Shown here: piece by piece, positions 7,512 to 61,484 of the stretch
Numbering within the stretch: the stretch's first letter is position 1
Layout of the letters: every line of letters begins with the position of its first letter
Assembly (NCBI RefSeq): GCF_027942865.1
Contig: NC_134509.1
Location: 17,138,017 to 17,202,016, forward strand
DNA: 64,000 bases
Direction: 5' to 3'
Source: Odontesthes bonariensis
Taxonomy: Eukaryota; Chordata; Actinopteri; Atheriniformes; Atherinopsidae
Notes under the pieces: generated by a model
The model's database searches: none
What the model saw: the letters and a program-made list of their open reading frames with translations, nothing else
Told to the model about the DNA's origin: nothing
Made by a program: the position numbers and the translations under genes

Positions 7512-8930
7512 TTAGGATGCCATCCAGATGGTGAAGGAGATGAGCAGGGTGAGTATAACTGTCAGCGGCGTCACGCAGCTCAGATGCAACATGATGCACA
7601 CTCCACACAGTGCGGTCAAGTAGGCGCTCAGTCGGCTGAACACAATCTTCCGTACAGTTGTGCAGAACTGCAATAAAAGAGAGTGAGACCCAGAGAATGA
7701 TGTGGGTGTAAAGTAACACTAGATGGAGCCGCACGCCTCCTGAATGAGTGAGCCTTGTTTCCCTGTGACAGAAGCAGACACATCAGCGGGTCTGAATCAG
7801 AGCATTAATCTATTGGTTTTTTGCTCACACACCTTCATAAGGACATTTGGCTTAACACTGATTTACTCTGAGGGTTGCGACTTTGCACGTAACCCATGTG
7901 CAATTAGACTTTGGCCTTTTGTCACATGCACAATGTAACCTTTCTGACACCTTTTAATACAAAGCTTGCGAAGAATTTAAGTTTGTTGTAAAAGAAAAAT
8001 AAATAAAGGCCACCTTTCAATAGAAAGCCAAAAATCATTGTTTAAATGCTAATCATGGAAAGATGATACAACTTTTTTGCTTGTTCTGAATGTAAAACAC
8101 ACCTCTTTGTAGATGGAGGCAAGTTTTAAAGGGTAATTTCATGTGTAATTTCATTAAGAAAACATTCAAAAGGCTGTTCTAACTGAGTCTTCTGTTCACA
8201 CTGGGGACAAGAGTTTCCTCTCAAGAGATGTTAATATACTGAGTGATGAGGGACAAAACCTACAATCTAATCTGAGCCTCGAACAGTTTGACTTAGGGAA
8301 GTTAATTGTCTTGACTCTTGACGGTTGCAGTTTTGTCTTTGTTGCACAAGGCCTCATTAGCCAGTGAGGACCAAAAACTATTTCTTGTCGACATATTGTC
8401 ATGTTAGTACAATTTAAAGACAGACAGTAGTCTAGTCACTCTACCTGGTATGTCTGATAGCTTATGGCCATCCCATATCTGCAGTACATGACGTAGTGTT
8501 CACAGTTGTACCACAGTAAGCTGTAGGTAACTGATCCCAGGAGTTTCTCAGCCCTCCGTGCCACCTCGTCCTGATCCAAGGGAGGCTGGTTGCACACTTT
8601 ATCCATGTGATTGATCAGAATTTCTGATCCGTAGGCAAAATCTGCCACTGAGTCCACTCTCACACTGGCCATCTTGGTGATGACCCCCAGCAGTAAGCGG
8701 TTGTTTGTTACCATCTTGGCAATGGTAGATTTATCCTGGGTGACTGCAGGCAGGATGTCAGGTATGAGATGAGCCACCCGATTGTTGCCCAAGTAAATAC
8801 CAAAATGGGTGAATAAAGTCCTGGGCACCTCTAACAAGTCCCCGCGTTTATATAGGGACAGGTCATATTTGGAGTCCTCTTCCTCTTTGGAGGCTGCAAA
8901 GAAAAAGTTGAGGAGCTGGTAGAGAAACAT
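7512..8930 (-). CDS. lrat: Lecithin retinol acyltransferase, copy 1
   Basis: The gene moves a fatty acyl chain from phosphatidylcholine onto retinol to make retinyl esters in the endoplasmic reticulum, the storage step of vitamin A and the visual cycle. There are two coding exons, 8930-8445 and 7667-7512, joined at CAG/gtagag...attgcag in phase 0, giving 213 residues (human about 230). The NlpC/P60-like core shows THFGIYLGNNRVAH with His42 and His54, and NCEHYV with Cys143. The His-to-Cys spacing of 101 equals that of human His60-Cys161. Exon 2 encodes the C-terminal membrane helix ending WMAS. I chose the start at 8930 because it gives a hydrophobic N-terminal helix; an upstream in-frame ATG at 8960 would add ten residues. 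The symbol is family-level, since fish paralog naming cannot be settled here. Confidence 0.9.
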
Positions 8931-8960
8931 GGTGGCGGTATGAAGCAAAGAGCCTGACAC

Positions 8961-9810
8961 CTGGGCATTTTATTCATGCTGGAAATGGGAGGGGTAGAGG
9001 TATTTAGCAGGATTAAATACTGGTCAATGTTCAGTTTGTTTTTGGGAGAAAGAAAGGAGCTTTCTTTAACCACTTTGCCGTGTGGCTTTATTTTGAAACT
9101 CAGGCTTTGTTTGCGGTGTATTAAGGTCAAGGATCCTCATTAAAAGAGCTGACTTGGCAACAATTTCAATCCTAATTTAAAAGGTCAGACATTGAGCCAT
9201 CATGCCCAAATAACCAGCCTTTGTTCAGCATAGAACGGCCCACAACTGTTTCGATTTACCTCAGCATTATTCAGCACTTTCTAGAATATTAACAGAAATG
9301 TGTACATATCTGAAAGTGCTTTAAATGTAAGTGCATGCATGCTATAAGATGTACGTTCAGTGTAACTATACAAAACGTCCACATGTTTACTGTATCAGCA
9401 ATTAAGGAGCTTTTATACTGCCAACCCTAAAACTAAACATTCTTCAAACATTATTAAGGGTAATTCAGGGTTCTCGTTCCCCTGATATGTGAATACATGG
9501 AGATGTATGAGGAATCAGAATCACACAAGGCTCAAGTAAAAATAAGCTTTTTATTATACAATTGACATATTTACAGCTTTAAATCTAGCAAAGACTGCTA
9601 CTATATATTAATACATATGAATACAGTATATACATCAACATAGTGATTTAGTCCCCTGTTTACCCACTTTTGTGTTAACTCAGAAGTTAGCAATAAGAAA
9701 TCATTGTTTTCCTATATCAAAGATTTCACGTGTTTTTACTCCCACCCTGACGGGAAGAAAGGATCAAATTACACAACAGTAGAAATGCAAATAACACAAA
9801 ACATTCAACA
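8961..9810. other. Intergenic region upstream of lrat copy 1
   Basis: It holds the presumed promoter of the lrat copy at 8930. A weak TATTTAA box lies near 9012-9018 on the minus strand. No other gene or bordered element is visible. Confidence 0.35.
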
Positions 9811-10414: not shown

Positions 10415-12671
10415 TTAACCAGCCATCCACAGAGTGAAGGGTATCAAAACTGTGGGTAACGTAGTTGCCGGGGCCATACCAAAACAGACCATCGAGATAA
10501 TTCCAAGAAGCCCGGAGATTATGACGCTGCGCTGGTCTCTGATGATTGATTTCAAGCACTCACAGAACTACAAAGGGAGAAAAAATGAGAACCTATGGTT
10601 TATCAAGATTTTCCACATTATAGAAATATTCAATATGAGTAATAATAATAGATCACTGTCAATTCTGATGGACAGAAAATGCTTGTTGGAACCATTTCAG
10701 GACACTTGGAATATGTGGTTAAGTCAATAATGATGCTGTGAATCAGAAGTGATGGCAGCAATATGTTTCACCACTTCACTGTCATGGTGAAATAGCTTTA
10801 AGACCGTGTTAGATTTAGATAAGGTGGGACAATAAAAAGGACGGCTAAAGAAAACACGGCTGATCAGATTTTCAGTCCAACATAATCAAATGTATGTTTG
10901 TCCACATGTCAAAAATGTGGAAGTGTCAAAATTAAAGCCTGGAAATTGTGAGGTGATAAAGTTTTTCATTACCTGTTGTTGGAGGTGTTTTAATATGTAC
11001 CCTAACTATGTGGTTTTATCTCTAACCCCAACCATGTATCTATATTCTCTAAACCAGCCCTAACCAACTGTTAGGGACAGAAAAGTTCTTGTTAAATAAT
11101 GGGTAAGAATGAACTCAAACTTGATTCCCTTGTGTTACAATCCCAACTGCTCACCCCTACCTGTGAATTGATGTGTTTTGGAACATCTAATAGCTGTGGA
11201 ATAGCACATTTGTGATAGTTTCATTTCTTCAAAAAGGTACGCATAGTCCTTAAAACATAGGCATGCAAGATTTTTGGAATCTGGGAAAGAGGGTAACTTT
11301 ACCAATTCTGAGAATGTGCGACAGTTTGACATAATTCAAAAAATGGGGATTAAAGGATGTTGTACTACAGTGATTTTACAGTTTCCAGGGATTCATCTTA
11401 AGGCTGTTATGTTGTGAGATGTGGAACAAGATTCTGCTGTGAGACCGGATTTGAAGAAAGGACACCTTTTTATCAATAATGTCTCCAAAAGTATTTTGTT
11501 TTTCAACTTTTATTGATTGGATAGAAAGGCTCTGCTATTATCAGAAAAAAATTGCACGTTTCGGTGTAACACAAAACAGACGAGGGTGCGCATTCTTAAG
11601 GCCATCAACAAATTATATTAACCTAAACTGAGATGTGTCAGAATCTGTGTGGCAGCATCTTGGCTTCATTTATAGGTGGAATCCTGATAATCGTATAAAC
11701 CTGTGGGTCTTGTTGATCTGCCCAATATGGAAGGATGTCAAAAGTGTAAAACCTGTGCGTTGTTTTTACATGATCTATTTTCTCAGATAATGTTTTTTTT
11801 TGTTTGTTTTTCTTCACATTTTTAAAATGACTAAATTGTAACTGTGAAACAGAAAAGCTGGATGTAGATATTATCACTGGGTTTCAACAGATGTTAATCC
11901 CCTAAAACAGCCCGGTGATTTTTAAAGAACTACAGAAAAACTTCCAATATTAAATGTGGAACTAAACATTTAACCCCCCCCCCCATCCATAAGTAGTCTA
12001 ATAGCTACTGATGCGTCTTCCTTAAAGGGAAGCATCCTAAAACTGCCAATTATCAAATGATAAGACCTGCAATGGAAGTAGGTTAATGCAATTCATGGCA
12101 ATTCTGCACTACTTCAAAAGAAATGTTGGCACCGTACCTTCTCTGTTTGCTGACTTGTTGCAGATCCGTATCTGCAGTATGTTACAAAGTGCTCACAGTT
12201 ATTCCACAGCAGACTGTATGGGAAGGGTCCGGTTAGTTTCTCTGCTCTCTGGGCGACACAGTCGCTGGGAAACGGCTGCATCTTCATCATCTTATCCATG
12301 CGGTTAGCAAGGATGCTGGAGCCATAAGCAAAGTCCTCCAGTGTGTCTACTCGCACCGTGGCGCATTTGTAGATGCAGCCGAGGATGAGTCTGTTATTTG
12401 TGATGACAGAGCTGATGAGCTTGTGGTTGTTTGTAAGCACGGGTAGGATGTCAGGGATCAGGTGTGCTACTTTATTGTCACCTAAATAGATGCCGTAGTG
12501 GGTAAAGAGGCTTCTGGGGACCTCCAGCAGGTCTCCCCTCCGGAGAGGCGGATGTGGACCGCGCTGCACGGGACGCTCACGGTCCTCACGCTCCAAACAG
12601 CTGGACTCAAAGATCTTGAGCTGAAAAATTAGGGAGAACTTCTCCACCAGGAATGTCAACAGCTGCAGCAT
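10415..12671 (-). CDS. lrat: Lecithin retinol acyltransferase, copy 2
   Basis: Second, tandem retinol acyltransferase. It has two coding exons, 12671-12138 and 10567-10415, joined at AAG/gtacgg...tttgtag in phase 0, giving 228 residues, close to the human length. His58 and His70 ([14 protein letters not shown]) and Cys159 (NCEHFV) form the thiol-protease-like active site, again 101 residues apart. An N-terminal hydrophobic helix (residues 1-20) and a C-terminal helix ending LWMAG should anchor it in the ER membrane. This copy is closer to mammalian LRAT in its linker (SSCLERED...), its EHF motif and its C-terminal IIRDQRSV. A longer frame opens at 12863, but its first 64 residues are basic and unlike the family, so I use the ATG at 12671. 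A TATA-like GATATAAG lies about 50 bases upstream. Confidence 0.92.
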
Positions 12672-12720
12672 CGTGACGGTTTTAACTGGAAATTTCCGAA
12701 CGTGCCTCAACTTAACAAGC

Positions 12721-12731
12721 CTTATATCCTC
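12721..12731 (-). promoter_or_regulatory. Possible TATA box of lrat copy 2
   Basis: GGATATAAGG on the minus strand lies about 50 bases before the chosen start codon. A transcript starting 25-30 bases downstream would have a 5' UTR of only about 25 bases, so this is tentative. Confidence 0.3.
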
Positions 12732-12871
12732 ACTGGCACGAGGAGGAGAATAAGGTCCGATAAAAAAAAACAAGAACGTGATTGGCCGCTGATTGGCCTG
12801 AGCAAACGTGCAGCCTCTTTCCTTGATGCGTTTGTTTCCAGCTGCGTGTTTTCTGTGGGGCACAGATAAAT

Positions 12872-15100
12872 CTTTTGTTTTTCTACTTTGAATTAGGTGC
12901 CATAAATGAAAAATAACAGGAGAACCATTTAAGAAGTTTTAATTGATATAATCTAAATAACCGAGACCATGTAAACGTGTTGTGTTTGTGAAATGAAACT
13001 GCTTTGGGCTACATGTGAACATGGAGATTTAAAGAAAGTATGCTGAGTGGCTAGTTGTTAAGCTGCAGCTTTGGGATCACCAATTATAAAGGCTTTACAA
13101 GCTTTCACTAAAACTAAATTCCTAAAGTCATTTAGAAGATTTTTTGTTGTTGTTCGACATATGAACCCTATATTAAAGTCGATATTGGTATTATGTTCAT
13201 TTAAAGTGAAATACATGTGAAGTTAGAGTCTGTGGTCAGCACCTTACACAAATCTCCAAGAGAGTTTATCTTAAATATGAGAAAAGAAAAAAGAATCACA
13301 CAAAGGTATAACGCAGAGTAGCCAAAATGTTTTACATTTGGTTAAAGAGACGGTCGTTAAATATATTAGTTGTGAAGGAATTTTATGGAAAGAGCCAGAA
13401 AACAACCAAGAAATGCAAAGTGACAATAAAGACACGGAAAGCTTAAACAAAGACACAGAAATAAGTAGAGTCAAAGAAAAAGAGCGACAAAATAATCACC
13501 AAGAGACTTCAGGGCTACAGAGTTATGCAAAATGACAGTGGTTAAAACACAAAATGACAACGTAGTCACTCAGAGACCACAAAGACCATTATAAAGACAT
13601 AAAACAACCAAAAGGAGAAATAAACTATTAAAAAGAATTGCAAAACAAAAATCAAAAAGCTCAAAACTACCCCATGGACAGACAAAATAGCTCACAATGA
13701 GACAAAAAAGATCAAAATGAACACAAAGACAAAAACCCACTTAGACTAAGTCCCACTTAGTTTCTAACGCTTGTCGTGCTTTAGACACTAATAATTACCT
13801 TTGGACATACCCACTTTTTAAAGTATCTAGTGTATTCTGAACTGAGGTAAATTATACTCTGGTATATTTGGTGAGTGTATGAGAATAAATTAAATAATCA
13901 TTAGCATCCCATAAGCATTGAGGGATTGGCCTAGACATAAGGGTGACATCTTATTTCTAGCTTTATCTGAGGTGAAGTCCACACTTCCTGACTTTAAAAG
14001 CTCCTGCATTAAGGATATATATTACTGTTGTTGAGGAAAATCATAAATAACTGTTTGTGCCAGCTGTTCATGACATTCCCAGTGTGTCTACTTCTGAATG
14101 ACACCACCTGTTACTGTCTTGGCTTTTGGGTTGTTTCTTTTGTCTTTCTGGACTTTGTTTTGGGTTTGTGGATTTGCTCAATCTTAGTCAGCTTTACTTT
14201 CTTCATCATTTTCAAAGTAGTTTTCCTTGTGAACTTCAGTTGTGCTTCCAGTACTTGTCTCATACCAGGTCACTATCTACTGATTGCAACACCCTTTCTC
14301 ATGTTAGTCAATACTCTACTTAGCACGTGCTTGTATACTATGTGGCTTTATTTCCCCCCAGCTACATCCTGGTATCACAGTCACATCACTATCCCTGCCT
14401 TGATTTGTATTTTGTTTGTTTTTACTTTTATCTTCCAATGTTCTATTGGTTTTACTTACATTATTGCAGCCCTCAAAACTATGCAATATAATGTCAAACC
14501 CCTCTGTACCCCCACTGGTAGTGGTGCATCGTCTTACTTTTCATGCGTCATGCCTGGGAGGCTTCCATGTGGTCACAGCTCTCGTGCTCATGGTTGCTTA
14601 TTCTTTTGCACTTTATCCTCTAAAGATTGAGTTAAGACTCTTATTAATTAAATAAAGCTCTTAGCTGTGTAAACTCTCGTGTCGTCCACCACTTCATGTC
14701 AAGGCCCACAGTCTGGATCATAAAAGAAATCAGTTCTCATCCAGTTTTCTGGACTCCATCTCTGGTCTGCCACCTGCTCCCAAGTTTGTTGTTTTAAAGC
14801 TGCCTCGAGTCTGATCCAATAGGTCTCTGAGCTGTAGGTCTTTTGTCAAGATTGGAAATTAAAGGAGGAGAGTTTCACAATAAAATTAGTTAGTAACAGT
14901 GGTTTTATAGTTTATGGGGAAAGCTAAGTTTGTTTCAAAAGCTTACAAAAAGCAGAAAGTACCAATTTTCTGTACTTTCTGCGTTTTGTATGCCATTGCT
15001 TTGTAGAACTAAACCACTTGGAGACCATTTGTTACTGGTGGTTTTACATTAATTTCAGGTAGGTTGTCAACTCTAGGTGAGCTAGAATGTTGAGTTTTAG
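12872..15100. other. Intergenic stretch without a supported gene
   Basis: AT-rich, with ACAAAGAC-like runs at 13380-13740. A 200-codon frame at 14028-14630 is hydrophobic only because of T-rich composition; it has no domain and ends near a repeat-like AATAAAG. I see no gene here. Confidence 0.4.
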
Positions 15101-15811: not shown

Positions 15812-16594
15812 TCAGTTTTGACTGAGTTCAGCTGGAGAAAATTGTTTTGCATCCACACACTGATCTGTTCGATGCAGTGACAATGTATCTACAGGCCCGT
15901 GTTCTCCTGCCGTCAGTGACACGTAGATCTGAGTGTCATCTGCGTAGTTGTGGTAGGACACATTATAGCTGCGTATTAGCTGGCCTAATGGAAGCATGTA
16001 CAGATTGAACAGTACGGGTCCCAGGATTGACCCCTGGGGAACCCCACAGGTCATAGCCATTTGGTCTGAGACACAGTTACCAATTTCAACAAAATATTTC
16101 CTGTCCTCCAGATAGGACTTGAACCAGTTTAAAGCACGACCAGAGATTCCCACCCAGTCTTCTAACCTCTGTAATAAGATCACATGGTCAACTGTGTCAA
16201 AGGCAGCACTCAGGTCCAGCAGAACTAAGACTGTGACTTTACTTGCATCTGTGTTCAGGCGGATGTCGTTTGTCACCTTGATCAGAGCTGTCTCAGTGCT
16301 GTGGTGGGGCCTAAAGCCTGATTGGAAAGTATCAAAAGCATTGTTAGACAGGAGAAAGTCACTAAGCTGCTGGTATACAACTTTTTCTAGGACTTTGCCT
16401 AAGAATGGCAGGTTTGATATGGGCCGGTAGTTGTTCAGTAATGTGGCATCAAGATTGCTCTTCTTTAGAAGAGGCTTAATGACAGCGGTTTTTAAGGCCT
16501 TTGGAAATGTTCCAGTCTGCAGTGAGATGTTGACTAGATGAGTGAGTTGTAGTAACAAACTGCTCAGCACAGACTTTAGGAATCTAGTGGGCAA
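15812..16594 (-). pseudogene. LINE reverse transcriptase region
   Basis: The open frame has NYRPISNLPFLGKVLEK, LLDLSAAFDTVDH (motif A), GVPQGSILGPVLFNLYM (motif B) and YHNYADDTQIYVS (catalytic YADD). The sequence before 16594 is still homologous, so the listed start is only where the track opens. After KQFSPAELSQN a frameshift takes the reading to a stop at 15812. The conserved tail reappears at 15650-15345 as LDYCNGLLTGL, IQNAAAQVLTRT and PVLRSLHWLPV. Confidence 0.88.
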
Positions 16595-16888
16595 CTCATC
16601 AAGGCAGCACGTTGATGAACTCAGACTGCAGATGATCTCTTCGACTGTTTTGTCAGTAACAGGTGTGAAATGTGTCAGCTCTAGGTGTGTAGCTGTCTGC
16701 AGAGTAGTTATTTGTGTTGTGGAAATTATTGCATTTTTAATGCCTTGAACTTTGTCATTAAAGAATATTGCAAACTCATTACACTTAGATGTAGAAATTA
16801 GTTCTAAAGGCAGTGAAACTGGTGAGTTTGTTAATCTGTTTACTGTAGCAAACAGGACACGAGAGTTGTTACTGCAGTTTTTGATGAT

Positions 16889-17989
16889 TTAAGAAAAATA
16901 ACTCTCCCTTGTTCTATGCAAAGTCTGGTTGAACACACATAGCTTTTCTTTGTAAGTCTCATAATGAACCTGGAGCTTTGACTTGCGCCATTTCTGTTCG
17001 GCTCTCCGGCACTCCCTTTTCTGTGCCCTGACCGACTCTTCTTTCCTCCATGGCGCCCTTTGTCTACTTTTAACCATCCTAACCTTGACAGGAGCAATGG
17101 TATCCAAAACATTTAAGAGACTTGATGTGTAAGAGTGCAACAGATCATCAACATCAGAACACAGGGTGTTCTCAAACCTAATCATTTCCATAAACTGTGT
17201 CCCTGTTCTGTCATTTATGAGTCTTCCCCGAACAACTGCAGACCCAGCTGCTGGTTTGGGTGTAACAGACAGGTCGAAGAAAACACAGAAATGATCAGAT
17301 AAAGCAACATCGACGACATCCACGTTTGAGATAACAACACCCTTTGACATTAGCACATCTAGAGTGTGCCCTCTGTTGTGGGTGGGCTCAGTCACATGCT
17401 GAGTTAGACCAAACATTTCAAGGACAGCAGGGAGCTCTTTAGCTTGCTTGTTATGGGCCACATCCACATGCACATTCAAGTCCCCTGTTATGACTAAACA
17501 GTCAAAAGCAGTGCACACAATTGAAAGTAGTTCAGTAAAATCATCAATAAAACAATTCTGTGGTGGTTTATAAATGGTGAAATAAAGTATGGAAGATTGT
17601 TTTATCTCCATTTTGAATGACACATACTCAAATGATGAAAAAAACCCAAATGACAACTTGTGGGTGGGTATATTGTCCCTGAACATGGCACAAACACCCC
17701 CACCCCTCTGGTTTTCTTGTGTTTCAGACACAAAATTGAAGTGCGGTGGACTAGACTCAATCAGGACTGCATTTGCTGTGTTTTTGTCGAGCCATGTCTC
17801 AGTTAAAAATATAAAATCAAGATAGGGAGAGGAAATAAAACTATTTATCAGGAATAATTTGGTACTTAAAGATCTGATATAGAGTACTGCGTGTTTGAGA
17901 TTAGCTAGAGTTGAACTGGACGCTGTGTTCTTGCAAGGGATATGGATAAGATTTCTCTGATTGAACAGTCTGATTGTCCCTCTCTTCAC
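16889..17989 (-). pseudogene. LINE AP-like endonuclease region
   Basis: A 366-codon frame. It contains LTETWLDKN (catalytic Glu), GDLNVHVDV (Asp and Asn of the active site) and the terminal LSDHFCVFFDL (Asp-His), the standard motif order of apurinic endonuclease-like LINE nucleases that nick the target for reverse transcription. The frame stops with TAA directly after a basic linker (KSRQRAPWRKEESVRAQKREC). The homology continues in the same frame beyond the stop, so this is a nonsense change inside a single ORF2-like protein, not a true end. Confidence 0.85.
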
Positions 17990-18260
17990 TCCATCCTTGG
18001 ACCTCTGGCTGAGATGGTGTTTACCAACACAGAGGCCCTTAGCATCCTAGACAACAGCATTGACGCTGTTGGAAATAACAGCTGTGGGCACCGGTGGTGG
18101 GGGCCAAGCTGGGGGGGCTTTGGTCGGTGGAGTAGGCTGAGGAGGGAGTGGGGCTCGATGATTCTTTGAGGATAGAATTCTTGATCTTGCCATGTTTAGT
18201 ATTAATCCTGTGGATACACACCCATTAATTGTGTGTACACCCAACAAGTCCTTAATTTAT

Positions 18261-30316: not shown

Positions 30317-31942
30317 CTAACTACGACTTTGAAGTGTTGGTAAGTATTCGCGTCTCCATCTGTTCCAAAAGGTATTGGCTAGATGTTGGACCTGTCTCCA
30401 CTGCTGGCGGTGGAGATCTTTGCTGTCAAAGGTTCCCGGAGGAGGAGGGTAAGTAGACACCTTCTGTGTCAGGAGTGAAGCAGTGGTCAAAAGAAAAGGT
30501 GAGTCTGGGTCTGAAGAGAAAGGCACAAGCGGCCTGGCATTAATGATCGCCGTGACCTCTGCCATAAAGGTTGACAACACCTCATGAGTAAGGCGTGAAG
30601 GGCTGGTTTGCATGAGCATGGAGTTCAATATCCGTCTGGAGATGCCAATCATTCGCTCCCAAACTCCCCCCATGTGGGAAGAATGGGGAGGATTGAAAAC
30701 CCAAGTGCAACTTTCTTCACTCAAATACCTTCTAACATTGGGTTCATCGGGATCCGTGAGGAGTACATGCAATTCCTTGCAGGCGCCTGTAAAGTTGGTT
30801 CCGCAATCGGAACGGAGTTGCTTAGCGGGTCCCCGCAGAGCAAAGAAGCGATGCAAGGCGTTAATGAAACTTGAGGTGTCCATTGCCTCGACCAACTCTA
30901 TGTGCACAGCACGTGTGCTCATGGACGTGAAAAGTACGGCCCACCTTTTGCTGTTAGCTTGACCTTCTCGGGTGCGTCTTGTTGTAATAGTCCAAGGGCC
31001 GAACACGTCGAGACCCACATAGGTGAAGGGTGGCTCTGTACCCAGGCGATCGGGGGGCAGATCTGCCATCTTCTGCTCAGCAGCTCTCCCTCGAAGCTTG
31101 TTACATGTGACGCATTTGTGAAGGATACCGTTGATGCATTTCTTGACCCCAACAATCCAGAACCCTGCTGAGCGAACAGATCCTTCAGTAAAAACACGAC
31201 CTTGGTGTTTGACCTTTTCGTGATAATGCCTCACGAGCAGCGTTGCGATATGGCTGCGGCCTGGGATGACAAGAGGCAGTTTTTCTCTTGCGTCGAGTGC
31301 CGACTGGTTGAGCCTACCTCCTATTCTTAGAAGTCCATCTTCGTCCACATAGATATTCAGCTTTCCTAGAGGGCTATCTTTTGAGATGTTCTTCCCGGCA
31401 GCTAGACAAAAGAACTCTTTGCTGTAGGTCTCTCTTTGCACAGACTTGATGATGAGAGTTCCTGCTTTGAGCAGCTCTTCTGCTGTATGAGGCCCTTTGC
31501 ATAGATGCCAGCCATTACAGTCTTTGTGTTTGACCATAGCGGAGCTCCCGTGAGACTCGGTGACGTGTGTCAGGAATGCTATGGCTCTCACCAAAGACTT
31601 CCAGGATGAGAATCGCTCAAAACGATGAGACCCCAGGTTGGCTGGAGGAACAGAGAGCATGGTAGCATGAGAACGCACCTCGGTGTCGAGATCTGGAGCG
31701 ACAAGGTCATATGACTCCTCTTCTGAAGTGGACGCTCCTTCAGGCAGGGACAGGAAAGGAGGCCCAGTGATCCAAGTCGTGTTAGCAAGCTCAACTGCGG
31801 ATACAGATCGAGTGGCGTGATCTGCTGGATTCTGAGTGGTACGGACATAGTGCCACTGCTCTGGTTTGGTGGACTTTCTGATCCGCTGTACTCTGTTGGA
31901 AACATACATATAAAAACGTCTGGTTTGGTTATATATGTATCC
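30317..31942 (-). pseudogene. BEL/Pao RNase H end and integrase
   Basis: The open frame listed from 32023 starts inside the nested element. Homology begins near 31942 with YIYNQTRRFYMYVSNRVQ, the end of RNase H. Integrase follows: an HH-CC zinc finger with HYHEKVKHQG and HKCVTCNK, then a DDE core with GLDVFGPW (Asp), LRSDCGTNFTG (Asp) and WERMIGISRR (Glu). All three catalytic acidic residues are present. The frame ends at TAG 30317-30319, inside the protein as judged by the continuing homology. Confidence 0.88.
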
Positions 31943-31945
31943 TAA

Positions 31946-32559
31946 AGCCTGGTTTATAGTCGGTAACGCAAGACGCAACGCAAGCCCTTGCGCGGTTGCA
32001 AGCCCCCCCTTGCGTGCTTGCATGTCACCTCAATTTTCTAAACTTCACGCAAGACGCAAGCGCAAGCCACTGGCTGTGGTCGAAACCGCCTACTACTTGA
32101 TCGATCTGACAGTATGCAGAGCGTTTACACACAGTGCACTTCACTCCTGCCCGAGCCGAAATCAGCCGGCCTGAAAAGCTGATTTCCCTTAAGCTATAGG
32201 CTAAACTCTGTAAATATATAACTTTAGCAACATTTGAAACATTTTCAGGCGAGAAAGTAGTCGTTTAGACCCCCAAGGTGTTGAAAATCTGACAAAATAC
32301 CGGCTATTTACAAGAAGAAGAAGAAGCATGAATCCACTCGAAGAGAGACTTGCTGAAGAGGTCCTGGCGGTGAATTTCCTTTCATCGTAGTAGGCTTGTC
32401 ATTGAAAAAACCCGCTACTCCACCTACTGTCCTGGCGGTGAATCGCCACGCAGCACACACAACCGCCGACAAAGCAAAATGAAGTATAAACGTCTCGAGC
32501 CATTAACATACGCGCAAGACGCAAGCGCAAGGGCAGTTAAAAGAAGTATAACTCAGCCT
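31946..32559. mobile_element. Nested 614 bp inverted-repeat element (PIF/Harbinger-like) inside BEL pol
   Basis: The ends are 'agcctggtttatagt' on the left and, reversed, 'aggctgagttatact' on the right (11 of 15 matching). TAA is duplicated exactly at both sides (31943-31945 and 32560-32562). A 3 bp TWA duplication is the mark of PIF/Harbinger transposons. Repeats of 'gcaagacgcaagcgcaag' lie near both ends in opposite orientation. No transposase. It splits the RNase H coding region of the retrotransposon. Confidence 0.8.
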
Positions 32560-32625
32560 TAAGACAACCTTGCTGTCTGTGTAGAACTGCAATGAATCTA
32601 CACTGATGTCTAACTCACTCTCCAC

Positions 32626-35600
32626 TTACTCCGCCATCTCTACTGCTAATACAGCTGCACCCAGCTCCAGCCTCGGGACAGTGTGGGCAGCTGCGGGAGC
32701 TAGTTTCGCTTTTCCTAGGACAAAACCTATATGACACTTTCCATCGCTGTCGACGACCTTCAGGTAAGCTACAGCAGCGATGGCCTTCACCGAGGCGTCA
32801 GAGAAGATGTGCAGTTCCTTTCTGCGGGCTGTGGTAAGGGTGGTAGGAGTGTAAGCTCTCGGGATCCTGAAGTCACTCAGACTTTGTAAGGAGTTTTTCC
32901 ACACTCTCCATTCAGCTTCCTTTTCATCTGGAAGTGGACTGTCCCAGTCAAGGATCTCACCGCTGGTAAGTTCACGCAGTATGAACTTCCCCTGAATGGC
33001 GACTGGTGCAACGAGTCCGAGAGGGTCGAAAAGACTGTTCACAGTGGCTAGAACACCTCTACGAGTGAAGGGTTTCTCTGTAGCAGCCACTCTGAAAGTA
33101 AAGAGGTCATGTTTGAGATCCCAGCTAAGCCCTAAGCTACGTTGGATGTGATCTGAGTTGTCATCAAAATCCAGATTCTGAAGACCCTTTGCATGGTCCT
33201 CTGGAAGGAAGGCTTCCAAGACTTCAGAGGCGTTTGATGCTATCTTATGGAGCCGCAAGTTCGAGACAGCAAGCAACTCTTGTGTTCTTTTGAGCAGGTC
33301 GATGGCCTCAGCCGCTGATGAGAGGGACTTGAGGCCGTCATCGACATAGAAGTGTCGCTCTACAAAGTGTTTGGCATCCGTGCCGTATTCGCTTGCTCCA
33401 TGTAATGCCGCACGACGAAGACCGTAGATGGCTACCGCCGGTGACGGGCTATTGCCGAATACGTGGACTTTCATCCTGTACTCGACAATCTCATTGCTGG
33501 GTTTGTTGTCCTTGAACCAAAGGAACCGGAGAAAATCTCGATGGTCTTCTCTGACTATGAAGCTATGAAACATCTGTTCGATGTCCGCTATCACAGCCAC
33601 AGGCTCTCTTCGGAAACGCAGCAAGACGCCAAGTAAGCTACTGTTCAAATCCGGGCCAGTAAGTAGCACATCATTCAATGAAACACCACGATACTGGGCA
33701 CTGGAGTCAAAAACAACTCTGATTTGAGTTGGCTTACGAGGGTGGTATACACCAAATATGGGAAGATACCATCGCTCTTCTCCCTCTGACAGTGGAGGCG
33801 CTAACTCTGCCTGGTCGTGATCAAAGATCTTTTGCATAAAGTTCAGAAAGTGAGTTTTCATTTCAGGCTTTCTTTCCAGCGTGCGTCGAAGAGAAGTAAG
33901 GCGACTGAGAGCCTGCTCTCGGTTGTTTGGGAGCTGTAGCCGAGGGGATCGGAATGGAAGAGGTGCCACCAAGCTATTGGTGTTGTCCATGAACATCTCT
34001 TTATCCATGAGCTCCAGGAAAAGCTTGTCTTCGATGGAGAGACCCACCTTATCATCATCCTTGGTTCTTTCAAAGATTGAGCTGCCGAGGCTACAGTCAT
34101 CAAAGACTGTGGTGCTGAACTTTTCTTTCACTTTCAGGTGCTTAGGGCATGGAGAAAGGAGGGACGGACGCCCGTTTTCAAGCACGTTGGTCCGAAAGGA
34201 AGTGACAGCCTGGGGCTTGTGGGCCGAGCCCAAGCAGACATTGCCAACGACAACCCAGCCAAGGTCTAGTCTCTGAGCGTAGGGGGCATTGGGAGGACCG
34301 TTATGATGCTCTCTGACCTTATGAACCTGGAGGATGTCGTGTCCTAGGAGAAGTAATATCTGAGCCTCTGGATCTAGATGTGGGATCTTATAAGCTATGG
34401 ACTTCAGGTGAGCATGGTGCTGCGCAGCTGCAGGAGTCGGGATCTCCGACCGATCGTCTGGCATGTGATTACACTCGATGAGTGTGGGAAGCATCACCCT
34501 TGTCGTTTCATCCAATGACTCCACCACAAACCCTGTAGCTCTTGTCCCAGATGTCTCAGTAGTACCTGCACACGTACGTAGTGTATATGGCGACTCTAAC
34601 CCTTTGATTTGGAAGAGGTTGAAGAATTCGGACCTAGCTAATGACTTGTTACTTTGATCGTCTAAAATAGCATAAACTTTAATGGCTTTGTCTTGGTGTG
34701 CATTGGGGTAGACTCTCACTAGGCAGATCTTAGAACAAGATCTAGGTTCCTCACCTCTGTCGCAAACTTCTGTGCACCTGGATGTGACTGCTGACTGAGG
34801 TGCCACTCCTTCACCCTCCCCGCCATGCTCTAAGGAGGGGTCTCTAATGTCCCATGGAGCAGGTCCAGGGTGTAGTGCAGCGATGTGGCCATCACTCTCA
34901 CATTCTTTGCACTTCAAGGCCACTTCACAGTTCTTTGCAAAGTGAGCAGTAGAAGAGCAACACCTAAAGCAGATGCTGTTCTCTTTAAGAAAGGCCTTGC
35001 GCTCTCCAAGTGGCTTGCTTCGAAAACCTCTGCACTTTTTTAGATGATGGGGTTTTTTATGGATGGGACATTGCCTATCGATGTCGCTCGGCTTGCTGCT
35101 CAAACTGTCTGACTGAGAAGCTGAATGTTGGTATGCCACTTCAGTTTTGTGAGCAGACACATGACTTTTGATGTATCCTGACCTCCTTTCCACTCGTTCA
35201 GGCTTCGGTGGGTCTGTGGAGAATCTGTGGGAACTGTTTGATGAAACCATGGGGAAGGTTGAGAGTGTGAAGCTAGGGTCGTTTCTTCTGCGTGCTTCTT
35301 TACATATGAAGTCTGTGAAGAAAGCAAATGGAGGAAAATATACATTGTGCTGCTCTTTGTACAGAGAACCATGAGCTAGCCACCTCTCTTGCAGACCGTA
35401 TGGTAACTTTCCCACGATAGGGTTGACTCCCCTGGCGGTATCCAGGTATGAGAGACCAGGTAAGTAGCCCTCAGACTTAGCAGACTCCCTTAATAGGTCT
35501 CCCAGCTCCCTGAGCTTCAAAGCGTCGTTGGGACCGATTCTAGGAAAGCTCTCTATCCTTTCAAAAAGAGCTCTTTCGATTACTTCAGGGGAGCCGTAAC

Positions 35601-36324
35601 ACTCCTCTAAGCGATCCCAGGCCATCCTTAAGCCTACAGCGGGGTTAGCGACGTGCACAGAACGGATCCTTCTGACGTGCTCTGAAGACTGATTTCCCAA
35701 CCAATTTGTTAAGAGGTCAAGTTCCTCGCTTGTGCTTAAGTTAAGTCCATCTATGGCATTGTGAAATGAAGATTTCCACGCCCAGTAACTTTCTGGGCGA
35801 TCACTGAACTTGACTAGACCAGAGTTCACAAGCTCGCGACGCACTAAGTACCTTGTGATATCACTCATACCAGTCCTATCATCAGTATGCGGCTGAAATG
35901 AAACTTTGAAACTTCCACTGCCCTCTCTCTCACCTGCCTCTGCTGCTGCTTCGAGGACTTCAGCTTCTGCCAAGGCTACAGCTACCTCCTTCTCATGTTT
36001 TAAAGTGGATAACTCAGCCATTATGCGTGCCTCTTTGATTTTCACATCTGCAGTTAGACGGGCCTCTTCCACCTTCAACTCAGCGGCTAGACGAGCCTCT
36101 GCTAACTTTAATTCAGCTTCGCATTGAACGAAAGGGGCACTTGCACGTGCGGCTTCAGCTTTAGCACGGGCTCTGGTTGCTGCCCTGCTCACAGAGGAAG
36201 AATTAGATGAGGTGGAGGAGATAGAACTCTGTGATTTTGCTTTGGGTGCTGCGTTCTTCTCTGTAACACCATGATTTTTGTCGGGTGATTGACCCTGTCC
36301 AACTTCACTAGCATGTGACATCAT
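32626..36324 (-). pseudogene. BEL/Pao gag-protease-reverse transcriptase frame
   Basis: A 1232-codon frame from an ATG at 36324. Residues about 35-135 are an Ala/Glu-rich coiled coil. A gag region follows (about 150-370), then two zinc-knuckle-like Cys/His clusters (about 416-465, with CFRCCSSTAHFAKNC). A retropepsin-like aspartic protease lies at about 553 (LDDQSNKS), and reverse transcriptase runs from about 840 (VVFDSSAQYRG, IADIEQMFHSF) to the FYVDDGLKS catalytic box near 992. The start of RNase H comes last. It ends at TAA 32626-32628. Homology goes on past this stop for about 20 codons up to the nested insertion, so it is a nonsense change. Confidence 0.9.
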
Positions 36325-36447
36325 AGATTGAGCTTCTCCAATGATGTATGAGAAGAGGAGATGTGGAGACTTTTGAGAGAAAGGCGTTGAGCTTGCACAG
36401 TACCTTGCTTTCCAAGCTGTCGTACCTGTTGTGACAACGCTTTTTTA

Positions 36448-38742: not shown

Positions 38743-40378
38743 TGATGCAATTTGACCCTCAGTCCACCCTATTTCATAAGAAGTTTCTCAATCAAGGCCT
38801 CATGTGAAAAACATCTGTCCTCATTCAGTGTTTAGTTAGAGACTTCAATCAATACACTACTTCAAAGCTGAGTAAACATATTTATTCTAAAGGAGACGAG
38901 TTAAATTTCCACTTCAATGCTATTATATACAAAACACAGTCCAAACTGAAATTAGAAATTCATTTTAATTTTAATATGACTCTAATGATGATTTTCTTTC
39001 TCTCTTATCAGACTGCCAGGATGTAGCAAACAAAGGGGCCACCACCAGTGGTCTTTACTACGTGAAGCCAGCAAAAGCACCAGAGCCGTTCTTGGTCTAT
39101 TGTGAGATTGACGGCTTTGGACGTGGCTTCACTGTCATACAAAGGGTATGGATCACTTGTTACGAAAAGTCAAAGAGCTTTTAACTGTCTTCATCTCACA
39201 AATAAATAATTCCTGAACATTTTTTAAATGACTAGATAAAAGGATGTGCTTATTAATACAGAAAGTAATTGACAGATCATGACTGAATAGAAGTCTAAGT
39301 GCTCATGAATAAATAGATACGTTTCGACCCTTTTTTTTCTCTTTCACGTCCCCAGAGACGTGACGGCAGTGTGGACTTCCACAAGGACTGGACCCAGTAC
39401 AAAGAGGGCTTTGGTTATCTCTCTCCAGATGACACCACAGAGTTCTGGCTCGGCAACGAGAAGATCCATCTGCTGAGTACCAGTTCAAACATCCCGACAG
39501 TGCTGAGGATAGAGCTTGAGGACTGGGAGGGCAACAAAAAGTACATACGCACATACTCACACAATAACACATTATGTAAGACGAGAGCAGAGGGACATAG
39601 TGACAGAGCAAACATGACCCCTCAATGATAAGGTTATCTTAGGAGAGGAAAAAAATTAGTCAGTAGAGGTTACAATAAACTAAACCCATCTTTTTTTTTG
39701 TGGCCTCCTTTCTTCAGGCATGCCGACTACAACATGTTCAGACTCGGTCCAGAGATCGACATGTATCGTCTGACCTATGGTTACTACTACGGTGGTGATG
39801 CAGGCGATGCTTTTGATGGCTTTGACTTTGGAGACGATCCCAGTGACAAATACTACACATCGCACAATGGCATGCAGTTCAGCACTGGTGACAAGGACAA
39901 TGACAAATATGATGGCAACTGTGCACAGCAGGACGGGTCAGGCTGGTGGATGAACAGATGTCACGCTGCGCATTTGAATGGCAAATACTACCAGGGTAAG
40001 TCCCTGTGGATGAAAGCAGTGCCACGGCATTTATTTGATGTTCTTTTGCACAAGTGGAACAGCTATAATTGTGTTGTTATTGACAATTCAGCAGCAAACC
40101 TACACGTGGAAAAAAAACTCAACTTGTATCCAATAATCTAAACTTGTCAAATATTTCAAGGTCTGAACTGGCTGTGCTTTCCTCACCCAGGTGGCAGGTA
40201 CTCAGAAAAGGATGCCGGTGAATATGGCTTCGATAACGGCATAATTTGGGTCACATGGCACAACCGTTGGTACTCCCTGAAAGAGACCACCATGAAGCTC
40301 ATTCCCCTCAGCCGCATCACAGCAGGTGGTGGACAGCAGGCTGGTGTGAAACAGTTTGGCGGACTTGGGGACATATAG
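37362..40378 (+). CDS. fgg: Fibrinogen gamma chain
   Basis: Subunit of the secreted (AalphaBbetagamma)2 clotting protein, made in liver. Nine coding exons: 37362-37424, 37529-37576, 37676-37862, 38066-38150, 38547-38677, 39012-39145, 39356-39540, 39718-39995, 40191-40378, all with GT/AG borders, giving 432 residues. Residues 1-21 are a signal peptide. [10 protein letters not shown] is the disulfide ring at the start of the coiled coil, and CSEPCKDTV is the ring at its end. The fibrinogen globular domain starts near residue 172 (DCQDVANKG) and includes [39 protein letters not shown], the calcium loop [11 protein letters not shown] and [18 protein letters not shown]. The tail has Gln419-Gln420 and Lys424, the factor XIII cross-link residues in the family, and ends LGDI. 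Identification as gamma is firm. Confidence 0.96.
38703..38733. repeat. (CA)n microsatellite in fgg intron 5
   Basis: About 15 CA units just after the donor site of exon 5. Confidence 0.9.
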
Positions 40379-49100: not shown

Positions 49101-49302
49101 CACCGCGGAGGCTGACAAGACCATTAAAGTTTACAAAGAGGACGACACGGCTGTAAGTCACGATAATGAATCGCATGGGATTTCTGTGCTGATTTCCAGG
49201 CCACGGAAAGATAATTTGGGCAACTTTGTTTCTTTCTTGCAGACAGAAGAAAGTCACCCAATCAACTGGAAACCAGAAATACTCAAGAGAAAAAGATTCT
49301 GA
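43198..49302 (+). CDS. plrg1: Pleiotropic regulator 1 (splicing factor, WD40)
   Basis: Nuclear WD40 protein of the PRP19/CDC5L complex, needed for catalytic activation of the spliceosome. Fifteen coding exons: 43198-43206, 43388-43494, 44353-44489, 45514-45567, 45667-45760, 45875-45965, 46052-46150, 46276-46368, 47093-47242, 47349-47450, 47952-48054, 48191-48299, 48719-48858, 48959-49152, 49243-49302, giving 513 residues (human 514). The N-terminus has [20 protein letters not shown] and [13 protein letters not shown]. Seven WD40 repeats start at about residue 198 ([20 protein letters not shown], then [45 protein letters not shown] and a last blade). The C-terminus ends [11 protein letters not shown]. 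Start: exon 1 codes only MTE, like MVE in human. Introns 3 and 8 carry repeats. Its 3' end faces the TIR gene. Confidence 0.97.
44528..45432. mobile_element. 905 bp inverted-repeat element in plrg1 intron 3
   Basis: The ends 'agccctttttccatca' and its exact complement at 45417-45432 form a 16 of 16 inverted pair. Variants of the end ('ccttttccatcacttctgta' at 45251 and 'gtttttccatcaca' at 45352) recur inside the right half, so termini are repeated or nested. No transposase. A clear target duplication is not seen (only AT on both sides, allowing one extra base), so the superfamily is unassigned. Confidence 0.7.
44969..45032. repeat. Perfect 64 bp palindrome
   Basis: Two 32-base arms, 44969-45000 and 45001-45032, are exact reverse complements with no spacer. 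It sits inside the inverted-repeat element of plrg1 intron 3. Confidence 0.95.
46806..46835. repeat. (ATCTT)6 microsatellite in plrg1 intron 8
   Basis: Six perfect pentanucleotide units. Confidence 0.9.
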
Positions 49303-49473: not shown

Positions 49474-49479
49474 TTTATT
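49474..49479 (-). promoter_or_regulatory. Poly(A) signal overlapping the stop codon of the TIR gene
   Basis: On the minus strand the last sense codon and stop, GAA TAA, run into A, so AATAAA shares five bases with them. A 3' UTR of only about 10-30 bases is implied if this signal is used. Confidence 0.6.
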
Positions 49480-51010
49480 CCAGGAGCCATTTGCAGTCCT
49501 CATTGTATGATGTCAGCCCAGTAAAGCTGCCATTTTGGACAGCCAGGAACCTCCCAGAGCGTTTGTTCTTGATGACGACGGCCCTCTGACGGCTCTGGTT
49601 TGTCTGATCCATCAGCAGGAGCCACTCTTCAGATTCTGTGGGACCGGCTTGAAAGTGGACCCGATCCTGTTCGGGATCAAAGCCTGCAGCAGAAACAGTT
49701 AGCATTGACTCGAGAAGAAAGGGGCAGTGTGTGTTTCCATGTCTGTACAACCGGCAGTTCTGTTGTCAGAGGTTATTTTTTGCTCCATTTTTAATAAAGA
49801 CCACATTTTTCACATGTTTTCTTTTTATTCTTCATGGTAAAAATGGGTTTCCAGAGTTACCCAGGTAACTCTTGGTGACAGTGTTCCTGTAGTATTTACA
49901 GCCACTACCCTTAATCTCCTGATATAAAAAGGAGTTTAAATTCTGGTCTAAATTTTACAGGGAGCCAATATTGAGAGAGGGTATCACAGCAGACGTAAGA
50001 TCCAGCGGTCGTTACTCTGGCTGCAGCATTTTGGATCGATGCAAAAATAATTGGCAATTCTTTTTCTTATCATTTCTGATGAGAAATCAACTTATGATTT
50101 GCTATTTAACAGTTTCAGTGTACGTTCTGATTTCTCACCATACTGACTTAACTGAAAGAAAAAAAACAACAACTATGAACTATGATTAGCATTATTGATG
50201 GCTGGCACATTGTCTCCACACATACCAGAGTCACAAATGTAGAGCTTTGAGATGGCGTGACAGAAGCCTCGGCCTGGTTTCCTCTTCGGGCAGAGTTTTG
50301 TTGGTTCTGTCTGATCGACCAACTTTATTTGAGGTTCTTCATCTGCGAGGAGGTGGCCTGCATTAAACATGACCTCCTCTTCCAGAGACCTGAGACGCAT
50401 CTCAAAGTGCTCCTCATCCTTTTCTGCATTTCTATGGATGACAATGCAGTTTAGATCCCACGCATGCACACATGCAATTCCTTCAGCATCCATTCTTACC
50501 TTTTATAAAATGAACAATACAGTCCTCCTGACAAAATTCATTTTCATCCAGCTAAACTTTTGAAAAGAAGAGATGGGTCAGAAATGTGTTACTTTACCTG
50601 AAGTCCACCCACAGCAGCCCCGCAGTGATCAGTCCCAGCCACTCGCTGGCCTCCCAGTCGTGCGTCAGCATCACCGGCACCATAATGACCTCCCTTGTGT
50701 CAGCATAGCTGAGCTCCTTCTTGCAGTTGCGGGACGCCTGGTAAGCTGGCGTCATGAATGGACAAATCACAGCAGCCTCCTCCACTCCTGCAGCCATCCT
50801 GAGAGCACACACATGTGTCAGTCAGAAATGATGACGGATGGTTGGTGTGTTACTTGTATCTAATAGTACTCACGCATCATTGATGTTCCCCGTCACCCCT
50901 CCTTCGACATCCATCCAGACTGGGAGTCCAACTTCTTTCAGGCGCTGGTAAACCTTTTTCACAAGAGCCTGATTATCCCACTGGTAGGAGAGCACAATGT
51001 GAGATGGCAT
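49475..51010 (-). CDS. TIR-domain protein with unidentified C-terminal segment
   Basis: Four coding exons, 51010-50874, 50798-50598, 50431-50226 and 49683-49475, with correct splice sites and phases, giving 250 residues. Residues 1 to about 130 look like a TIR domain: HIVLSYQWDN (strand A), LKEVGLPVWMDVEGG (strand B and BB loop), AAVICPFMTPAY, CKKELSYA and VIMVPVML. Glu74 in CKKEL lines up with the catalytic Glu of SARM1-type NADase TIRs; this is my alignment by eye. Residues 114-181 form an acidic linker (NAEKDEEHFEMRLRSLEEEV). Residues 183-250 (FDPEQDRVHFQAG, IKNKRSGRFLAVQNG, CKWLLE) resemble part of a beta-trefoil. No signal peptide or membrane helix, so probably cytosolic. I do not recognise a named gene. 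It is not a Toll-like receptor: no leucine-rich repeats. It converges with plrg1 and diverges from dchs2. Confidence 0.82.
49793..49798 (+). promoter_or_regulatory. First plus-strand AATAAA after plrg1
   Basis: The nearest canonical poly(A) signal downstream of the plrg1 stop. It lies in intron 3 of the opposite-strand TIR gene, so plrg1 mRNA may overlap the TIR gene's last exon unless a variant signal is used. Confidence 0.4.
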
Positions 51011-52620
51011 CTTTTTTTATACATTTCCACTAAAATGAATGTGAAAATGGTTAAAGCTGCGTTACACTTCTGAGTTGGACAATTACTGAGCAAACAAACC
51101 CAGACAAAGAGAGACTGTAGCTATGGTGCTTGTTTGCCCAGTCACAACGCTCAGGTTACATCTGTTGCTTGGCTGCAGCGCCTGTTTGCACCAAAGAGCA
51201 ACCATGATGGTCATTATGTCCTGTGATACCATAGAGAGGAGCACAAGAGCATTCGGTATGCACCTCTGCAGTTTGCCCTGCGAAAATATGTTCGAAAGAC
51301 TGATTCTGTGCTTCTTTTGTGTCAAGGAAAGCTTTTTTTTAGACACACTGGCACAGTAAAACAGCAACATTTTTTCAAATTCATTTTCATTTCATGGATG
51401 ATTAGAAATCCCCATTATTTTTTGGTTTAGGTGATCATCTTATTTTAGTAATCTGGGTTGCAATTTCAAGCCTTTTTTCAAAAGGAAATACTTGAGAACG
51501 AAGCTCAATGTCACAAATTCAGCTTGGATTCACTGTGTTTGTCTTCAGGTGACAGAGTAAAACTGAGCAAAGCAGGAAGCCAAGGATGTTGTTACATTTC
51601 CATTTTCATTCTTTTGACTGTTGAAGTCCTCTGTTGCTTGGAATTCTTTTTGTTTTGTAATAAAATATTGTCTCTTGTAAGCAGGATTATTCATAGGTGT
51701 GAAGAATATATTGATAATGCATTAGATTAAAAGCAGAATTCAAATACTCACAGGGAGCAAGTTGCAGAATCCTGTTTTTGAAAAAGTTTGAACATTTTGT
51801 GAAAACACAAGAGAATGGTGTGCAAATTTCATTTCAATCCTACATTTAATTGTAAATAGAGCAAAGATCACATTTGAATAAAGAAAGTCCTTTTTCTCAA
51901 ACTTTATTTAAAAAGTTAAAAAAAATCCTAAAGTTTTCTGGTTCTTTTATCCATAATTGGAAGAACATAACAGGAAGAATGCTCCGTGATTTCCTGAGCC
52001 CATCTTGAAACGTGATCGTCTGTTTGAACATTTTTCCCCCTTTTTACCACTAGAGGGAGCTCTTCTGACACTTTTTCCAAGTCTTGCCAAGCGGAGGAAT
52101 CTCGTTAAACCACTTAATGTTTATTTATTCAAGTTCACCTCGATCCGGTCGAAACAAATTGTGCCATCTCAGCCCACAGTCTTATGCAGTCTCACCTCGC
52201 TTTCCAGCTCATTTTGATCTTCAACAGGTCGGACATAATGCGCTACCTGTCAGCACTGAAGGTAATCTTTCCTCCTGATTAAATCTTAAGCAATCGGAGC
52301 TTCAGATGGAGCAGCTCAGCGTGGGACAAGAGGAGGAGCGTTCAAAGCGCGCAGTCGATGTTCCGCAGGACTCTTGGAGGTGTCGTGTTGTGTGAGGGAA
52401 TCAATGGGATTTAACCTGTTGGGCATTTGGATTTCTACACGCCAAAGTTCTGTGAAGGAGAATGACCGCTTTCGTGCGCGCAAAACTGTGCGATCCGTTT
52501 CCCTGCTTTTGTCTGGAAAATGGCTCTAATACGTGATTAAAGCTTTTGACTTTGAGGTGGAAAGATGTAGTCTGATTTACCTTTCACGAGACCATAGTAA
52601 AAGCAACGTGCAGAGGAGGA
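51011..52620. other. Shared upstream region of the TIR gene and dchs2
   Basis: 1.6 kb between two divergently transcribed genes. No exon homology seen; it should hold both promoters or 5' UTR exons. Just before the dchs2 start (52310-52500) the sequence becomes more GC- and CpG-rich. Confidence 0.4.

Positions 52621-61484
<8,864 letters not shown>

Follow-up and report, generated by a model that had tools for sequence, protein, structure and literature searches.

A four-exon TIR gene of Odontesthes bonariensis encoding a putative NAD-cleaving effector

The window, a stretch of 64,000 nucleotides from Odontesthes bonariensis, contains a real, intact, nuclear TIR gene of four exons, whose product belongs to the TIR family and matches catalytic TIRs at several residues. 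There is about an even chance that this product is a small cytosolic effector whose TIR belongs to the catalytic (bacterial/SARM1-like) lineage, putatively cleaving NAD to ADP-ribose, and the case for enzyme activity of the protein is evenly balanced. Catalysis, oligomerisation, a trigger, a cytosolic place and an immune or cell-death role are what we infer. Asp34 and the modestly supported grouping with bacterial and SARM1 TIRs are better evidence for the NADase reading than Glu74, on which the preliminary description had relied.

The four minus-strand exons are spliced via three GT-AG introns of 75, 166 and 542 nt into one frame with a coding length of 753 nt, corresponding to 250 codons and the stop codon TAA (Table 1). 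The four-exon, 250-residue gene previously described therefore holds in its frame, introns, stop and TIR_2 match, and DVEGGVTGN (residues 34-42) does lie at the BB-loop position, with Glu74 within CKKELSYA. An alternative exon 3 donor, 6 nt further on, also leaves the frame open and gives a 252-residue variant. An in-frame TAA is the third codon upstream of the ATG, indicating a complete N-terminus if that stretch belongs to the transcript. Codon-position GC of the gene is 0.59/0.37/0.62, and the sole finding of a repeat search inside it was one A/T-rich inverted pair. Intron 1 (50799-50873), at 75 nt a multiple of three, is in frame save for two TGA stops. In intron 3, about 49924-50039, a DNA search revealed a dispersed repeat with at least 11 further genomic places, 71-87% identical. 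ISRE-like (9) and NF-kB-like (3) sites in the 64-kb window occur at near chance frequency, with none near the TIR gene.

Table 1. Positions of the exons, key codons and poly-A signal of the TIR gene within the window.
Feature	Position	Strand	Description
Exon 1	50874..51010	minus	Residues 1-46, codon 46 being split; strand A of the TIR through to the BB loop (DVEGGVTGN); GT donor
Exon 2	50598..50798	minus	Remaining TIR core, including N70 and E74
Exon 3	50226..50431	minus	TIR match ends; acidic stretch; C-terminal segment begins
Exon 4	49475..49683	minus	C-terminal segment, weak beta-trefoil hints; stop TAA 49477-49475
Asp34 codon	50909..50911	minus	Counterpart of AbTir D167; from alignment
Asn70 codon	50726..50728	minus	Trp position of WxxxE TIRs; from alignment
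Glu74 codon	50714..50716	minus	Counterpart of AbTir E208 and SARM1 catalytic Glu; from alignment
AATAAA	49347..49352	minus	123 nt past stop, within 3' flank of convergent gene (presumably plrg1)

The gene is convergent with a plus-strand WD40 frame ending at 49302, whose match is weak and below the cut-off, and diverges from a plus-strand frame with Pfam-matched cadherin repeats (52576-54486). We take these neighbours to be plrg1 and dchs2, respectively; with names so assumed, both frames fit the position between plrg1 and dchs2 proposed earlier. The frame at 39632-40138 has a match to the fibrinogen C-terminal family, in keeping with the vertebrate order fibrinogen-plrg1-dchs2. Elsewhere on the minus strand, the window carries BEL/Pao-type retrotransposon remains (30317-36444), comprising a Pao peptidase frame of 1272 codons (PF05380, 2.8e-37) and a frame of 570 codons matching DUF5641, and a LINE-like element (15812-18046) with a reverse transcriptase frame (PF00078, 3.9e-32) and an adjoining 385-codon frame. 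Two LRAT (lecithin retinol acyltransferase) frames, at 8436-8969 and 12114-12938 (2.2e-40 and 1.2e-39), also on the minus strand, are likely a tandem pair.

Pfam assigned the product to a single family, TIR_2 (PF13676), over residues 5-123 (E 9.8e-22, 78.2 bits), exceeding the curated cut-off of 28 bits; a match at this E value indicates that the gene is more than chance. The TIR part alone matched TIR_2 at 2.4e-20 and gave no PF01582 match at E<=1, in contrast to the receptor-type TIR L015 of the same genome, which matched PF01582 at 1.6e-22. The best PADLOC matches were anti-phage TIR effectors (SAVED_TIR at 7e-6, ThsB at 2.9e-4), NCBIfam gave weak matches only (best 0.012), and PHROGs returned one family of unknown function (0.039). 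Among plasmids a single record was matched, from Enterobacter asburiae (E 7e-4, 30.8%), and phages gave no match. With viral contigs, the TIR alone produced no pattern match and the two-row alignment described below had 0 of 150 stretches confirmed; for prokaryote genome contigs, 0 of 14 and 0 of 121 were confirmed. A phmmer search of the PDB with the whole product yielded no TIR at E<=10, and the literature search found no paper on this TIR gene among the matches listed.

A search of the fish's own genome (945 Mb, 187 contigs), in which only top candidates from an initial pass were scored, found no second copy of the product, all four matches at E<=1 being its own exons. The TIR_2 family search of the genome gave 21 matches, two of which are the window gene. 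SARM1, which we take to be L030, is a separate locus, and the receptor/adaptor labels of the remaining own-genome TIRs, including TIRAP-like L018 and TICAM-like L028, are likewise our assumption. Among single-frame TIR_2 matches in the genome, L014 (G000:C12:26042366-26042692, minus) scores highest (75.8 bits); it lies in an open frame of 457 codons and has a BB loop of receptor type. Another TIR match, L027 (G000:C4:17038146-17038370, minus), lies about 100 kb from the window, scores 27.6 bits, just below the cut-off, and is receptor-like by eye.

Active-site residues were compared in a 16-row alignment that took in the window TIR, SARM1 and 10 receptor/adaptor TIRs, all from this genome, along with four bacterial TIRs. 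Its own-genome rows represent 11 of the 19 TIR_2 matches outside the window gene; the eight dropped were L021, which nearly duplicates L020, and seven frames that were partial or interrupted (L024, L026, L027, L029, L032, L033 and L034). This alignment was preferred to a three-row MAFFT alignment, which did not line up the SARM1 catalytic region. Glu74 lines up with AbTir E208 and with the catalytic Glu of Cat1 and SARM1, bearing out the proposed correspondence to the SARM1 glutamate. The column holds Glu in all five bacterial/SARM1 rows and also in six of the 10 receptor/adaptor rows, so Glu74 alone is no mark of an enzyme; the putative NADase glutamate thus retains its column match and loses its specificity. 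Asp34 is a better NADase mark, its column holding Asp in 5/5 bacterial/SARM1 rows and 0/10 receptor/adaptor rows (Glu in two of the 10). Position 70 is Asn in the window protein; Trp occupies it in SARM1, in three bacterial rows out of four and in seven receptor/adaptor rows out of 10, and the receptor-type row L022 shares the Asn. The window protein thereby misses the tryptophan of WxxxE, which counts against the catalytic reading.

In an alignment with AbTir set by hand, S140, R151, D167, V193 and E208 correspond to S8, K18, D34, P59 and E74 of the window protein, so that three of the five key positions are identical, one is conservative (K18) and one is changed (P59, against the reading); in the 16-row alignment AbTir R215 falls opposite Arg81. 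The register was checked by numbering from E208, after which S140, R151, D167, V193, K201, W204 and R215 all coincide with the expected amino acid. According to Table II of PMC11374754, these five residues are needed in AbTir and their partners in TcpC, with D167 listed as required for NADase activity. The same paper gives R215 as needed in AbTir, its TcpC partner falling outside the mutants tabulated, and reports that W204A abolishes AbTir activity; the TcpC partner, W240, is dispensable. W204 is required for the cyclic product, per another study cited in PMC11374754, and the catalytic E208 of ligand-free AbTir is surface exposed and points away (PMC11374754).

Kinship was assessed by local pairwise alignment of nine rows, each against 500 shuffles. 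The Enterobacter TIR reached z 14.4, a biased value given that this row was chosen as the sole plasmid match, and L014 reached z 5.7. SARM1 gave z 3.0, its score of 40 lying below the shuffle maximum of 48 and its local match ending before Glu74. TIRAP-like L018 (z 0.7) was no better than shuffles, receptor-type L015, L017, L019 and L022 gave z 1.4 or less, and L028 gave z 0.2. In the 16-row tree the window TIR groups with the five bacterial/SARM1 rows at 86/89, a split that is not starred and in which long branches meet. A two-row profile of the window and Enterobacter TIRs, its ranking biased by the bacterial row it includes, placed Cat1 (3.7e-7), 3h16 (2.3e-5) and AbTir (9.2e-5) top in the PDB, with TLR1 at 0.011 and SARM1 chains below it at 0.58 or worse. 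These comparisons favour a lineage of catalytic type for the window TIR, closer in character to bacterial TIRs than to SARM1, with descent and activity unproven.

The C-terminal part had been described as possibly of trefoil type and as a possible sensor domain, which the searches did not confirm. Its Pfam matches lie below the cut-off (FGF 0.12, RicinB_lectin_2 0.21, DUF6698 0.091), with 0 of 8 shuffles giving any Pfam match, and exon 4 alone matched an FGF1 chain at 0.72 in the PDB. Searched against the PDB at E<=10, the longer C-terminal segment hit no trefoil chain; among plasmids, the C-terminal part had no match. Of the 124 positions in the FGF profile the match covers 33-76, stopping 3 residues short of the C-terminus, meaning that the last third of any trefoil would be missing, and an internal repeat between the two supposed lobes did not rise above shuffles. 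The predicted exon-4 model consists mostly of strands (pLDDT 60); Foldseek gave it no match at E<=0.001, and none of the best 50 of 179 rows names a trefoil. An AlphaFold model of exon 1, intron 1 and exon 2 read through was uninformative (pLDDT 34). The segment may be beta-rich, and a C-terminal beta-trefoil is a lead.

If the protein is a catalytic effector, its TIR monomer would be inactive, and a trigger acting via the C-terminal part would lead to oligomerisation, with Asp34 and Glu74 helping to build the NAD site in the oligomer. Cleavage of NAD+ would then release nicotinamide and ADP-ribose. The product is predicted to be linear, not cyclic, since the AbTir tryptophan tied to the cyclic product is Asn70 here. 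Of the NAD-consuming effector previously proposed, the TIR domain, the BB-loop position and the Glu74 match stand; the tryptophan is absent, and the trefoil sensor did not emerge. Also counting against catalysis is Dictyostelium TirD, whose toxicity did not depend on the Glu presumed to be catalytic (PMC13142454, Discussion).

A non-enzymatic adaptor or decoy, whose TIR would bind other TIRs and tune receptor signalling with Glu74 serving structure only, is a substantial possibility, if a tentative one. It agrees with the Glu of six of the 10 same-genome receptor/adaptor rows, with the lost tryptophan of WxxxE, and with the named small TIR proteins of vertebrates being mostly adaptors. It is harder to reconcile with a BB loop lacking the RD..PG of receptor rows, with the 86/89 grouping with bacterial/SARM1 TIRs, with an Asp34 absent from all 10 receptor/adaptor rows, and with an alignment to the TIRAP-like row at shuffle level.

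It is improbable, at the present state of the comparison, that the protein is a TIR-fold enzyme acting on another nucleotide substrate, or giving a cyclic or base-exchange product, in place of bulk NAD+ hydrolysis; Asn70 is unusual as an active-site neighbour, and phylogenetic likeness among TIRs is described as no predictor of biochemical function (PMC13142454). That the gene is merely the remnant of an ancient animal TIR gene, decaying or unexpressed, is very unlikely: four intact exons with canonical splice sites, an unbroken frame, a poly-A signal and the codon-position GC given above speak against it, set beside the absence of a second copy among the matches, the lost tryptophan and, if the C-terminus is a trefoil, its absent last third.

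Returning to the catalytic reading, a speculative extension is that some vertebrates keep a second, predicted TIR NADase beside SARM1, which would be small, single-copy and cytosolic, with a C-terminal sensing module, a Trp-less site and linear ADP-ribose as product, directly linking bacterial anti-phage TIRs to vertebrate cell-death effectors. Were this so, the lack of a second copy in the search would make for an easy knock-out, rendering the role of unstudied animal TIR groups testable.

Among known systems, the presumed SARM1 TIR (L030) shares the Asp34, E36, G41 and Glu74 columns with the window protein and aligns gaplessly from Glu74 to the VPV strand. Unlike SARM1, the window protein has no ARM and SAM domains, its product beginning with TIR, and no insert before the catalytic Glu; it has Asn for Trp, and the pairwise z is 3.0. 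AbTir shares the TIR core and the S8, D34 and E74 positions, and differs by K18 for R151, P59 for V193 and N70 for W204, with 11 of 74 aligned residues identical; Cat1 shares D34 and E74. Set against the named adaptors (MyD88, TIRAP, TICAM), of which the rows presumed TIRAP-like (L018) and TICAM-like (L028) were compared, the window protein lacks the RD..PG of a receptor-type BB loop and stands apart from both rows. TcpC was compared through the mutant table of PMC11374754 only.

A survey of 26,414 domains describes a metazoan/protozoan TIR group whose architectures are mixed and whose members are 13% early-chordate or bony-fish TIRs; the survey gives SARM1 as the only metazoan TIR with known NADase activity (PMC7075850). 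Like the window protein, these Group 18 TIRs fall outside the named receptor/adaptor families, have mixed architectures and include some bony fish; the words trefoil, ricin and lectin are absent from the main text of PMC7075850. A 2026 preprint presenting a eukaryotic TIR atlas reports several uncharacterised eukaryotic clades (PMC13142454). As described there, clades 10-13 resemble the window gene in being animal TIRs that are uncharacterised and lie far from any studied protein, and differ in that arthropods, molluscs and cnidarians are named and fish are not. Compared by description only, the window gene is probably a Group 18-type protein of PMC7075850. A catalogue of unstudied, architecturally mixed animal TIR proteins exists already, and the window gene is probably a new one among them.
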